Shown here one piece after another: positions 17,295-63,168 of a stretch of DNA of 64,000 nt. The notes beneath the pieces are model-generated. The model was not told where the DNA came from. It saw nothing but the letters and a program-made list of their open reading frames with translations, and did not search any database. Origin of the DNA: Bacillota bacterium (GTDB lineage: Bacteria > Bacillota > Sulfobacillia > JAJZYS01 > JAJYTV01); the NCBI GenBank assembly GCA_021799275.1, contig JAJZAT010000010.1, positions 1 to 64,000 of the forward strand, in the 5' to 3' direction. The position numbers and the translations under genes were made by a program. Position 1 is the first letter of the stretch. Each line of letters begins with the position of its first letter.

Positions 17295-17680
17295 CCGAGC
17301 AGCACAGGCAAGTGGTCCTACTGGTCGAGGACAACCCCGTGAATGCTGAGTTGGCACGTACCCTGCTTGAGCGAGACTGCTTCGAGGTGGTGCATGCCGC
17401 TACCGCTGAGTCTGCACTGCGCCTGGCGCAGGATGTCCGGCCCAATGTCGTGCTGATGGATCTTCGCCTCCCGGATGCAGATGGCCTTGCTGTTGTCCGC
17501 AGCCTGCGTGCGGATCCCACCTTTGCTCAGACTGCGATCATTGCGCTCACCGCGTACGCGATGGCTAGAGATGAGGAAGAGGCATTGGCGGCTGGGTGCG
17601 ACGGCTTTATCGTCAAGCCGTTCGATACCCGGTCGTTCACATCGCGGATCCATAGCATCCTTCGGGCGCGACCTTCCTAA
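17291..17680 (+). CDS. Single-domain response regulator (CheY/DivK-like)
   Basis: A 129-residue stand-alone receiver. The acidic pocket is in LLVEDN, the phospho-acceptor is Asp57 in VLMDLRLPDADG, and the conserved Lys is in IVKPFD. There is no output domain, so it acts through protein contact. ATG 17291 overlaps the kinase stop by four bases and has GGAGGAGC upstream. It is probably phosphorylated by the kinase and relays to a partner or serves as a phosphate sink. Confidence 0.85.
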   Translation: MTEQHRQVVLLVEDNPVNAELARTLLERDCFEVVHAATAESALRLAQDVRPNVVLMDLRLPDADGLAVVRSLRADPTFAQTAIIALTAYAMARDEEEALAAGCDGFIVKPFDTRSFTSRIHSILRARPS

Positions 17681-17705
17681 GACGCCCGTAGAAGGAGGTC
17701 TTCCT

Positions 17706-18773
17706 TTGGAACAGGCTCTAGAGCGCGACGCGGTATTGATCATCGATGATGAGGCCGTCAACCGCGAACTTTTGCGTGCTCAGCTGGAGGCTGCCGGCGT
17801 ACGCACTCTCGAAGCATCCGGCGGGCTTGAGGGCATCGCCATCATCGAACGCCTGGGCACCGAGCTGGGGGCCGTTTTGCTCGACCTCCATATGCCGAGG
17901 GTAGACGGCTTCGAGGTTCTGCGTCGCGCGCGCGCGGCCAACCTTCCAGGACATTTGCCTATCATTGTCGTCACAGCCGCCAGTGATCGAGACTCGCGGC
18001 GTCGGGCAGCGGCCGTAGGTGCCGACGAATTTTTAACCAAGCCCGCAGACCAAATCGAGCTGGTCGCCAAAGTCCGCAACGCCATCCGCTGGCGTCGACT
18101 GTTCCGCAGGATGATCAGCGTCCAAGGCGTGCTGGATGGGCTTGCGATTGCCATCGAATCCCGGGACCACTACACCGAAGACCATACGCTACGCGTGTCC
18201 ATGTACTCCCTCTGTCTGGCGGAAGCGTTGGACCTTTCACTGGACACGCGGCTGCAAGTGCTGGAAGGCGGTCTCGTGCACGACGTTGGCAAGATTGCTG
18301 TACCAGATGCGATTCTGCTCAAAGAAGGCAAACTGACCCCAGAGGAATACGAGATGATGAAGCGACACGTACTGGTCGGCGCGCAGATCTGCGAGGCGAT
18401 GGGCGTAGACGCGATTACAGTCCAGCTTGTCCGACACCATCATGAGCGTTTCGATGGCAATGGCTACCCCGATGGTCTTGCTGGTGAGCGGATTCCCCTT
18501 GCCGGACGCATCGCCGCCGTCGCCGACGCGTTCGACGCCATGACATCGAACAGGCCTTACCGCAGCGCGCTATCGTGGGAAGCGGCAACCAACGAACTCA
18601 AGGGAGGCAGGGGATCCCAATGGGACCCTGCTATCGTGGATGCTTTTCTCGAAGTTGTGGCCACAAACGACCATGTGATGGGTGCCGCGCGCGAGGGCGG
18701 CTCCCGCCTGCACCATCTGCTACGGCTTCGCCGAGCGCACCTGCTTACGCGACTGGAGGTCCCGTCTGAATAG
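17706..18773 (+). CDS. Response regulator with HD-GYP c-di-GMP phosphodiesterase domain
   Basis: A 355-residue protein with an N-terminal receiver (phospho-Asp in LLDLHMPRVDG) joined by a helix to a complete HD-GYP domain: HTLRVS, HDVGK, RHHHERFDGNGYPDGL and DAFDAMTSNRPYR are all present, so hydrolysis of cyclic di-GMP is expected. I chose TTG 17706 because GAAGGAGGTC ends 5 bases before it. The gene directly follows the single-domain receiver, so the operon couples a hybrid kinase to c-di-GMP breakdown. A strong terminator lies at 18906-18942. Confidence 0.85.
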   Translation: MEQALERDAVLIIDDEAVNRELLRAQLEAAGVRTLEASGGLEGIAIIERLGTELGAVLLDLHMPRVDGFEVLRRARAANLPGHLPIIVVTAASDRDSRRRAAAVGADEFLTKPADQIELVAKVRNAIRWRRLFRRMISVQGVLDGLAIAIESRDHYTEDHTLRVSMYSLCLAEALDLSLDTRLQVLEGGLVHDVGKIAVPDAILLKEGKLTPEEYEMMKRHVLVGAQICEAMGVDAITVQLVRHHHERFDGNGYPDGLAGERIPLAGRIAAVADAFDAMTSNRPYRSALSWEAATNELKGGRGSQWDPAIVDAFLEVVATNDHVMGAAREGGSRLHHLLRLRRAHLLTRLEVPSE

Positions 18774-25709: not shown

Positions 25710-25907
25710 GTGCCAGCGCCACAGAGGTTCCTGCAGGAACTGATCGGCAAGCCGATCCGCCTGCATTTCGCACGGGTGGAGTCCGCGTCGGCCGAAGGCC
25801 TGCTCGACGGTTACGACAACCTGGGCGTGCTTGTCCGCCGGGCGGACCGCCTGACCTTCTATCCCTGGCATGTGCTGCGGTCGATCGAGGTGGCGGAAGA
25901 GGACTGA
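25710..25907 (+). CDS. Small Sm/Hfq-like protein
   Basis: A 65-residue protein with the strand pattern of an Sm fold: LIGKPIRLHFARVESASAEG, then LLDGYDNLGVLVRR, then LTFYPWHVLRSIEV. The YDN-x-GVLV stretch resembles the Sm1 region of Hfq (FDNFVVLL), and YPWHVLRSI resembles the Hfq Sm2 YKHAISTI. It is too divergent to name hfq. GAGGAGGTGTGCC precedes GTG 25710. A role in RNA binding is inference from fold resemblance. Confidence 0.55.
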   Translation: MPAPQRFLQELIGKPIRLHFARVESASAEGLLDGYDNLGVLVRRADRLTFYPWHVLRSIEVAEED

Positions 25908-26618: not shown

Positions 26619-26863
26619 CGTGGGGAACCCTCCCGTAAGCGGGTGGCTACGGCCAAATTCTCGCAGGGTCCGTCCGCCGGGTCAAACCGGTGTCGCAGCA
26701 GGATATGGTCCCGCGTTCCGATCATGACCGATCGTCGAGAGCCAGGTGGGACGCGCTTCGAGCGCTGGAGCGGCGCCCCTGGGACCCGAATGGATGAAAT
26801 TACCGCAGTGCCTCGCGCCGTCGCACCCCCACAAAGGCGTCGGGCGACACGAACCCACTCCTA

Positions 26864-26893
26864 TTGACACAAGTCATTTCTGCCTGATATTGT
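26864..26893 (+). promoter_or_regulatory. Promoter of the riboswitch-pilin transcript
   Basis: Consensus TTGACA (26864-26869) is followed after 18 bases by TATTGT (26888-26893). Transcription would begin near 26900, just ahead of the riboswitch core. Confidence 0.6.
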
Positions 26894-26908
26894 CGACCCA
26901 CACTGAAT

Positions 26909-26999
26909 ACCCCGCGAAATGGCAAACAGCTCGAAAGGGCTGGACGCAAAGCTACGGGTCTAAGGCCGAGAGGGCTATGATCGCCGGGTTGCCGAAGGG
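26909..26999 (+). promoter_or_regulatory. c-di-GMP-I (GEMM) riboswitch
   Basis: The sequence holds the conserved GEMM core in order: GGCAAAC, a P1b hairpin with a GAAA tetraloop (CAGC-TCGAAAGG-GCTG), GGACGCAAAGC, a GGGTCTAA segment, and the closing GCCGGGTTGCCGAAGG. This matches the c-di-GMP-I aptamer, in which the nucleotide is bound at the three-way junction. It lies between a promoter and a terminator (27009-27046) in front of a Flp pilin gene, so c-di-GMP probably controls read-through into the pilin gene. Whether binding switches it on or off cannot be read by eye. Confidence 0.85.
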
Positions 27000-27008
27000 A
27001 GAAGGTTT

Positions 27009-27046
27009 GGCCTCCCGATGGCTGTCGGGAGGCCTTATCGCTTTTT
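27009..27046 (+). terminator. Riboswitch-controlled terminator
   Basis: GGCCTCCCG (27009-27017) pairs with CGGGAGGCC (27026-27034), followed by a run of five T at 27042-27046. The upstream GGGAG (26998-27002) at the riboswitch edge could pair with CTCCC (27012-27016) as an anti-terminator. Confidence 0.8.
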
Positions 27047-27077
27047 CGGGGCGGGGGGAGGAGGGGATATCGCGCTC

Positions 27078-27248
27078 ATGGCCATACAGGTCTCCGCGTT
27101 CCTGTACCGTCTCAGGGCAGCCGAGGGTCAGAGCATGGTCGAATATGCGCTGATCATCACGCTGGTCGCGATCGTAGTGGTCGGTGCCGTCGTGCTGTTT
27201 GGCCAGGGTGTCAGCAACATCTTCGACTCCATCACCAGCAAGCTCTGA
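27078..27248 (+). CDS. flp: Flp/Fap-type (type IVb) pilin
   Basis: A 56-residue prepilin. The leader ends at AAEG, followed by QSMVEYALIITLVAIVVVGAVV, which is the Flp signature with Glu at position 5 after the cleavage site and one hydrophobic helix (key residues G16, E21, Y22). A prepilin peptidase would cut after the Gly. GGGAGGAGGGG precedes ATG 27078, 12 bases away. Flp pilins form Tad pili used in adhesion and biofilm; no tad machinery lies in this window. Expression appears to be under the c-di-GMP riboswitch. Confidence 0.85.
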   Translation: MAIQVSAFLYRLRAAEGQSMVEYALIITLVAIVVVGAVVLFGQGVSNIFDSITSKL

Positions 27249-27608
27249 CTCCGGGAGGGCGCCGCTCCGACGTAACTGACCTGTGGGTAGACGATGGTTT
27301 GAAATTAGGAGTTCCTAACCGCCGATGGCGCAGTGCCCTGCAGAGAGCCGCACGACACAATAGGACGGCACACGACGGCAAAAGCCACCCGTAACCGGGC
27401 TGTGGGTAGCGGCGGTTCCAGGCAAGTGACCGCCATGGTAGCATGGCCAAAGTCTGGTGGGCCATATGGCGGTTGCCGAAGGATGCACGACACAGGATCG
27501 TAGGTTCAGGTGCGACTGGAAATGCGGAACTGTGTTGCGTTCCGTCGAAACCCGCCTCGGTCTTCCCGACAGGATTCGGGAAGCCCTGACCTGAAGGAGA
27601 CCTGGCGC
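27249..27608. promoter_or_regulatory. Intergenic leader with a possible degenerate GEMM-like element
   Basis: No gene is evident in these 360 bases before the chemoreceptor. Fragments resemble a c-di-GMP-I aptamer: GACGGCAAAAGCC then GGGTAGCGGCGGTTCC (27374-27419), and further on GCCATGGTAGCATGGC (a 6-bp stem) and GGTTGCCGAAGG (27471-27482), the last shared with the riboswitch at 26909-26999. The order and spacing do not fit the consensus cleanly. A CTTCCCG/CGGGAAG hairpin follows near 27562-27583. Confidence 0.3.
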
Positions 27609-60352: not shown

Positions 60353-60973
60353 CTAAAGCTTACGCATGGCCTGCAGACGCTTGCGTTCCTGGCGCAGCAC
60401 GTAGGCGATGACGCGATCCTGGTCCATCTCCTTGATCTCCATGAAATCGCAGCCGATCAGGCGGCCACCCTGCGGTGCCTCGCCGGCGCGTACGACGTAC
60501 ATGGTGAGGGGGATGGGGGCACCGCTTTCGAGGAAGAGCGTTGCGGAGACGATGTCCTGCTTCATGATGCCGGAGTCCTGTGGGCAGTGCGCGAGAAGGC
60601 CGCAGCCCGAGAGGTCGATCGCGCGGCAGGCCGTCTCGCCGATGATGAGAGGAAGGACCACCGGCGTGCGGTGGAAGCGCCGCTTGGCGAACCGCTGGAT
60701 CATCAGAGGCTGCCTCGCGGTCACACTTCCCTCGGGCGAGACGGACAGGACGTCCAGCTCCGCCACCAGAGTAGCCGTCTCGGTGTCGATGCGGGCGATG
60801 ATGTGGCTGCCAGCAGGGAACGGCACGCCGCGCCACCGTCTGCCCACGGGGGTAAACGTCAGCGAGCGGCCATCCTGTTCCGCAAGCGTCGCCGGCAGCA
60901 CCACAGGGCCGTCGGGTGTGGCACGCTCGAGCGACACCTCGGCGCCGATCGGAAACTGGGGTAGTTCTTCCAT
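60353..60973 (-). CDS. PilZ-domain c-di-GMP receptor (YcgR/MotI-like)
   Basis: A 206-residue protein with an N-terminal YcgR-type beta domain (to about residue 95) and a C-terminal PilZ domain. C-di-GMP-binding residues are visible: KRRFHRTPVVLPL carries the RxxxR motif and DLSGCGLLAHC carries the D-x-S-x-x-G motif. Such proteins brake or modulate the flagellar motor when c-di-GMP is high. GGGAGGCCCATCGC precedes the ATG. It diverges from the FliN-like gene. Confidence 0.88.
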   Translation of the reverse strand: MEELPQFPIGAEVSLERATPDGPVVLPATLAEQDGRSLTFTPVGRRWRGVPFPAGSHIIARIDTETATLVAELDVLSVSPEGSVTARQPLMIQRFAKRRFHRTPVVLPLIIGETACRAIDLSGCGLLAHCPQDSGIMKQDIVSATLFLESGAPIPLTMYVVRAGEAPQGGRLIGCDFMEIKEMDQDRVIAYVLRQERKRLQAMRKL

Positions 60974-62097: not shown

Positions 62098-63168
62098 ATG
62101 AGGCGCATGCGCCTAGGGGTGGGCGCCGTAGGGTTCACCCTCGCGGATCCCCCCACCGACGCGACGGGACGGCCGCTGGCGCCGCGCGGCACCGTCATCG
62201 ATGCGGACCTTGCGCGCCGCCTGCAGGAAGCGGGCGTCCACATCGTTTTCGTCGAGGACCCCGCCTTCCAGGACCTCCAGTTCTCCTCGCTCGTCTCGCC
62301 GCCGACGCTGCGCCTCGCCGGCGCCGTGTTCCACGAAGCCCGCGAGCGCCTGCAGACGCGGCCCAAGGAACCCTTGCCCTACGTGCCCTTCTTGCACCTG
62401 GCGCAGGCGGTGATCCAGGATTCCTTCGATACGCCGCTCGACGTGGCCGCCGTGCTGCACCCGCAGAATCAGTCCCAGCGCGACGAGATCCACGCCCTCA
62501 ACCGCGCCAGCCTGGCGGTGCGGCTGGCGCAGGCCATGCGGCTGCCCCGCTACGCGGGGGACCTCGCCGCGGCTGGACTGGCCTGCGACCTTGGCATGCT
62601 GCTCGTGCCGCAGGACGTGCGATGGCGCCAGGGCGCCCTGACGCAGGCGGACATCGAGGCCTTGCACGCCCATGTGGCGTCGGGCCTGCGCTACGTGGAG
62701 GCACGAGAGGGCTGGACCGCGGTGACGCGGGCGGCGATCGCCCAGCACCACGAGCGGATGGACGGCAGCGGCTACCCGAACCGCATGCGCGGCGACGAGA
62801 TCCACCCGACGGCGCGCATCCTCGCGGTTTGCGACGTCTTCGCGGCGATGCTGCTGCCGCGGCCGGACAGGGGCGTCCTCTCGCCGGAGGAGGCTCTGGC
62901 GGAGGTGGACGGCGCCGCCGGCAGCCTCTTCGACTACGACACGGTGGTCGCGTTCCATCACATGGTGCCGCCGTTTCCGGTTGGGACCGAGGTGGAGCTC
63001 TCGACCGGCGAGCGCGCCGTGGTGCTGCGGGTGCCCACGGGCCTCAAGGCGAGGCCGCTCGTTCGGGTGTTCATGGACAAGGACGGCAACCGCCTAGAGG
63101 AGTTCGCGGAGCTGGATCTCAGCCAGCGCGACATGCAGGCGACAACCATACTTCGCGTGATCGCTTAG
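62098..63168 (+). CDS. Degenerate HD-GYP-domain protein
   Basis: A 356-residue protein with an N-terminal region (to about 120), an HD-GYP domain and a C-terminal ~80-residue beta domain. The catalytic HD pair is replaced by Cys163-Asp164 (GLACDLGMLLVP), and the GK residues after it are missing, although QHHERMDGSGYPNRM keeps the GYP motif. It is therefore unlikely to hydrolyse c-di-GMP by the usual mechanism and may bind it or a protein partner. The ATG follows GGAGGACAAACCC. It lies between cheX and cheY. Confidence 0.75.
   Translation: MRRMRLGVGAVGFTLADPPTDATGRPLAPRGTVIDADLARRLQEAGVHIVFVEDPAFQDLQFSSLVSPPTLRLAGAVFHEARERLQTRPKEPLPYVPFLHLAQAVIQDSFDTPLDVAAVLHPQNQSQRDEIHALNRASLAVRLAQAMRLPRYAGDLAAAGLACDLGMLLVPQDVRWRQGALTQADIEALHAHVASGLRYVEAREGWTAVTRAAIAQHHERMDGSGYPNRMRGDEIHPTARILAVCDVFAAMLLPRPDRGVLSPEEALAEVDGAAGSLFDYDTVVAFHHMVPPFPVGTEVELSTGERAVVLRVPTGLKARPLVRVFMDKDGNRLEEFAELDLSQRDMQATTILRVIA

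Follow-up and report, generated by a model that had tools for sequence, protein, structure and literature searches.

Introduction

In C. difficile, the functional class I c-di-GMP riboswitches are uniformly OFF switches, whereas other species can have class I switches that are ON, and extrapolation between species has been cautioned against (PMC6366702). The same organism carries multiple copies of these leaders, some of which arose by duplication (Cdi1_8 to Cdi1_11; PMC3649979), a situation like that of the two leaders described here. A c-di-GMP-II riboswitch, which is an ON switch, precedes C. difficile pilA1 and heads a pilus locus in which the major pilin comes first (PMC6366702). The aptamer class, the attenuation logic and the duplication of leaders are thus all known already. 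In the literature that we searched, in which few subscription journals were covered, no c-di-GMP riboswitch was found before a Flp/Tad gene; older comparative lists of GEMM targets may include such cases.

Here we analyze a window of 64,000 nucleotides, the whole stretch of DNA examined, from a Bacillota bacterium. We propose that a class I c-di-GMP riboswitch in this window probably controls a Flp (Tad) pilin gene through transcription attenuation, acting as an OFF switch. The features on which the argument depends are the following.

26823-27235, forward strand: second copy of the cassette that heads the Tad operon on contig C31 (83% identity)
26864-26893, forward strand: sigma-70-type promoter, TTGACA (26864-26869) and TATTGT (26888-26893), from a motif scan
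26911-26996, forward strand: c-di-GMP-I (GEMM) riboswitch aptamer, from the RF01051 covariance model
26991-27022, forward strand: predicted antiterminator (anti-aptamer) helix GCCG-AA-GGGAG...CUCCC-GA-UGGC, which captures C92/C93, from folding
27009-27034, forward strand: hairpin GGCCUCCCGA...UCGGGAGGCC, putative terminator stem that excludes the antiterminator, from its folding z-score and covariation
27042-27046, forward strand: U5 tract with non-canonical spacing, beginning 7 nt past the stem
27045-27056, forward strand: UUCGGGGCGGGG element directly 5' of the Shine-Dalgarno sequence, from conservation
27057-27066, forward strand: strong Shine-Dalgarno sequence GGAGGAGGGG, from the sequence
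27078-27248, forward strand: flp, encoding a 56-residue Flp/Fap prepilin, from Pfam and the prepilin site
60353-60973, reverse strand: PilZ protein
17475-18773 and 62098-63168, both forward strand: two HD-GYP-type proteins

Results and Discussion

The aptamer and its surroundings

The aptamer matches RF01051 over the full model (1-87) with 80.2 bits against a gathering threshold of 35 (E 3.6e-14), and it is the sole above-threshold match in a cmscan of the window. This search had been suggested as a check in an earlier note on this DNA, whose reading of a GEMM/c-di-GMP-I core it supports. The equivalents of Vc2 G20, A47 and C92, which we take from general knowledge of the Vc2 structures to be the ligand-contact positions, are present by alignment position at 26921, at the first A of GCAAAGC and at 26992, and the window aptamer presumably binds c-di-GMP. 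Some Geobacter GEMM-I RNAs (GEMM-Ib type) sense cyclic AMP-GMP instead. It is very improbable that the present aptamer does so: the discriminating position (G20) is G in both the window aptamer and its paralogue, and HD-GYP and PilZ proteins are encoded within the window. The flagellar genes and c-di-GMP proteins that the earlier note had placed nearby are indeed there, with many flagellar genes in the window in addition to the PilZ and HD-GYP proteins.

The promoter claimed upstream was also recovered. Its two boxes are separated by an 18-nt spacer and match the consensus at 10 of 12 positions; two such promoters were found against 0.3 expected in shuffled sequence. The TTGACA box lies inside a 10-nt block that is invariant across all nine aligned cassettes.

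Two further elements flank this region. A tandem motif, GTAACNNNNCTGTGGGTAG, occurs at 27272-27290 and 27391-27409 within the leader of the adjacent MCP gene. The pair is also found 5' of the orthologous MCP gene in G001 and G002, and G005 has a single exact copy; a search of 10 genomes gave no further occurrences. The motif has no Rfam match and may represent a tandem RNA element or a protein-binding site; a search for a second riboswitch 5' of the MCP gene (27240-27600) returned nothing from Rfam up to E 5. On the other side, a 65-codon ORF (25710-25907) is kept in relatives of the genus with 81-88% identity (tblastx). It has no Pfam match at E 0.1 and looks Hfq-like by eye.

The Flp pilin is a satellite of a complete Tad operon

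The window Flp matches Flp_Fap (PF04964) with E 2.7e-7 and 30.7 bits, slightly below the cut-off of 32.2, which its C31 paralogue (37.8 bits) and most orthologues exceed. It is a short prepilin with a hydrophobic stretch and a G/XXXXEY processing site, RAAEG/QSMVEY (RAAEG/QSMVEYALIITLVAIVVV), in agreement with the 56-residue Flp prepilin read earlier from the sequence.

There are two Flp genes in the genome, each directly behind an RF01051 riboswitch; the 3.14 Mb draft contains six such riboswitches in all. On contig C31, the riboswitch is followed by flp and then by genes for TadE, a TadG-like protein, RcpC/CpaB, a CpaE-like protein, TadA, TadB and TadC, and this operon is headed by a near-identical promoter-aptamer-hairpin-flp cassette. 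Two prepilin peptidases (peptidase A24 matches) are encoded on C15 and C22, away from the C31 operon. The genome therefore encodes TadA, TadB, TadC, RcpC and TadE together with a prepilin peptidase, as expected of a Tad pilus, and the tadA and rcpC genes that the earlier note had proposed to look for both lie in the C31 operon. A lone pilin devoid of assembly machinery was considered and is ruled out by this complete operon elsewhere in the genome. No Tad genes occur within 11 kb downstream of the window flp, and only in this local sense is the pilin lone. The assignment of the riboswitch to flp stands, given the covariance match and the retention of the cassette in seven relatives of the genus and family. 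The description of a lone pilin under a simple swim-or-stick switch does not, because the window pilin is a satellite duplicate of the riboswitch-flp head of the Tad operon in the same genome.

The likeness between the window and C31 extends over about 415 bp, from the promoter through the pilin and no further. The window cassette is situated between ccdA and an MCP gene. When the surrounding 16 kb were compared with relatives by blast, the cassette was absent from the syntenic site in G001, G002 and G005, the three genus relatives in which the site was recovered. Since these relatives share the flanking genes but lack the cassette, the riboswitch-flp unit was most likely inserted at the window site. 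The two flp genes differ by a dS of about 0.69, as large as that between species of the genus, with a dN/dS of about 0.25. Judging from these sequence distances, the window cassette would be either an old copy that purifying selection has maintained or an acquisition from inside the genus.

It is also conceivable, though improbable, that the window cassette is a duplicate in decay, whose aptamer remains while regulating nothing important, the work being done by the Tad-operon copy. The cassette occurs at this site in only one sampled member of the genus, the Tad genes are far away, and the Pfam score of its pilin is slightly below the cut-off. Decay is difficult to reconcile with a dN/dS this low at such a dS, and the promoter, aptamer core, hairpin, Shine-Dalgarno sequence and prepilin site are all intact.

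The leader hairpin

The 51-nt stretch that contains the hairpin (26996-27046) folds at −27.5 kcal/mol, with a z-score of −4.2. In an alignment of eight distinct leaders of the genus and family, two pairs of the stem have changed on both sides from G-C to A-U (5 cells), and none of 500 shuffles scored as high. These two covarying pairs indicate that selection acts on the hairpin stem.

The earlier note had described this element as a terminator with U5. The strong hairpin is real. The U tract, in contrast, is not directly attached to it, and a strict scan, which requires the tail to be at most 2 nt from the stem, found no terminator in the window leader or in the other copy of the genome on C31. 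Taken together, the 7-nt gap and the negative scan make the element a real hairpin with non-canonical spacing. The same strict scan returned a canonical terminator, a GC-rich hairpin with a U tract directly after it, at the same position in two family relatives, G006 and G007; the window leader lacks this arrangement. At the hairpin of the window leader, termination is a prediction.

The predicted alternative helix and the proposed switch

A second, predicted helix would compete with the hairpin. In the folds, the GCC at the 3' end of the aptamer, the last two residues of which correspond to C92/C93, and the following GGGA(G) pair with (C)UCCC and (U)GGC in the 5' arm and loop of the hairpin. 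Before the 3' arm of the hairpin is made, this pairing (b:c) has a probability of 0.82-0.98 in all eight cassettes. C92/C93 pair downstream with a probability of 0.95-1.0, compared with 0.26-0.60 when the downstream sequence is shuffled, and they contribute about 3-6 kcal/mol to the helix. In G006, the predicted fold flips from antiterminator to terminator when C92/C93 are blocked.

In single-sequence tests, the observed pairing was reached by 0 to 13% of 60 shuffles, which is marginal for some orthologues. In several leaders (e.g., G005 and G006), the automatic hairpin finder selected a different hairpin from the terminator; for those leaders, the pairing probabilities before the 3' arm is made are thus the better evidence. 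The antiterminator shows no covariation across the eight leaders. Its columns are nearly invariant, and covariation is therefore uninformative there. In seven of the eight cassettes, the terminator hairpin beats the antiterminator at equilibrium whether or not C92/C93 are blocked. Any effect of the ligand in these seven must therefore be kinetic.

Because c-di-GMP needs C92, ligand binding and the predicted alternative helix are mutually exclusive; this predicted helix and the terminator hairpin are likewise mutually exclusive. A helix that excludes both the ligand-bound aptamer and the hairpin has the logic of an OFF attenuation switch. We propose that, without c-di-GMP, the GCC strand and GGGAG would pair with CUCCC..UGGC, and that this antiterminator would retain the 5' arm of the hairpin until the polymerase has passed, allowing flp to be expressed. 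With c-di-GMP bound, the GCC strand would be kept in the aptamer, the hairpin would form, and transcription would stop or drop. In the folding models, this layout suggests that c-di-GMP lowers, rather than raises, pilin expression. Since the window unit duplicates the head of the Tad operon, both loci should respond jointly to c-di-GMP. Against the OFF direction, repression of a pilus by c-di-GMP is contrary to the usual paradigm.

Conversely, the hairpin may be no terminator in this genus, and the ligand could free the ribosome site from pairing between UUCGGGGCGGGG and the aptamer, raising pilin synthesis. The negative strict scan of both copies is consistent with such an ON, translational switch, as is the conservation of UUCGGGGCGGGG, which is kept in all aligned leaders (with one additional G in G002 and the identical G003). 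In most full-length folds, UUCGGGGCGGGG pairs with CCGAA at the 3' end of the aptamer, which includes C92/C93, and with CCCCGC in its 5' flank; the probability of this pairing (a:e) is 0.49-0.99. There are precedents as well: the class I switch Bc2 of Bacillus thuringiensis is ON, and class I switches of Vibrio act otherwise than by termination (PMC6366702). We nevertheless consider this alternative rather unlikely. The Shine-Dalgarno sequence itself is mostly unpaired in those full-length folds, and canonical terminators occupy this position in the family relatives. As UUCGGGGCGGGG sits 3' of the hairpin, it cannot decide termination there. It could lock the read-through RNA in a ligand-blind state or affect translation.

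Distribution among relatives

The whole cassette is conserved in the seven genus and family relatives mentioned above, and the association of riboswitch and pilin extends further. Among 41 genomes compared, 39 class-level relatives bear Flp, and 20 of these (G000, G001-G007, G012-G015, G024, G025, G027, G028, G030-G032 and G039) have a riboswitch directly 5' of flp, defined as RF01051 within about 500 nt upstream on the same strand. In those that have it, the riboswitch-flp unit usually heads a Tad operon, and in most relatives with enough sequence the gene order follows that on C31 up to the contig ends. A riboswitch also precedes flp in an uncultured Clostridia bacterium (L085) and in Bacillota AS04akNAM_35 (L092); in the latter, flp is followed by ORFs that look TadE- and TadG-like by eye.

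It is possible, at slightly less than even chances, that class I c-di-GMP riboswitches are ancestral heads of Tad operons throughout one class of high-GC Bacillota and act there as OFF switches, so that Tad pili would be made at low c-di-GMP. One species would then have spread riboswitch-flp to a second site beside flagellar genes, giving a regulon of two pilins under one signal.

Other arrangements of this aptamer were also seen. In G007 (L070, C23:94172-94259), a c-di-GMP-I riboswitch directly precedes a gene whose start resembles MotA; if it is MotA, the flagellar stator would be under c-di-GMP control. In Thalassobacillus (L087, L090 and L100), a c-di-GMP-I core stands before small ORFs that look SinI/SinR-type by eye. 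Class-level relatives also have c-di-GMP-I aptamers in tandem, spaced by about 75 to 120 nt (G030:C69:52907-53158, G015:C56:58181-58472 and G023:C16:290-583).

Comparison with known systems

Riboswitches for c-di-GMP are known for flagella and type IV pili; the present analysis adds a link to Tad/Flp, conserved between families within a single class. Should the OFF direction be true, this link would run opposite to the usual rule, under which c-di-GMP promotes pili. The duplicated leader also provides a natural matched pair for testing one riboswitch over two pilin genes.

Among the nearest known systems are class I riboswitches such as Cd1, which precedes flgB in C. difficile. Both belong to RF01051, the window copy lying well above the gathering threshold. 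The promoter-aptamer-hairpin layout and the OFF logic of the Cd1-type leaders are alike, although OFF is only predicted here. The targets differ: flagellar genes there, a Flp/Tad pilin and the Tad operon here. The terminator spacing is also non-canonical in the source genus. The pilA1 leader of C. difficile shares with our locus a c-di-GMP riboswitch at the head of a pilus locus. In contrast, its aptamer is of class II, its type IV pilus is of another type, and it is an ON switch, where an OFF switch is predicted here. With the Tad/Flp loci of, for example, Caulobacter and Aggregatibacter, the genome has in common flp together with the genes for TadE/TadG, RcpC/CpaB, CpaE, TadA, TadB and TadC. 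Unlike those loci, it places a riboswitch leader before the operon and repeats this leader before another flp at a dispersed site.
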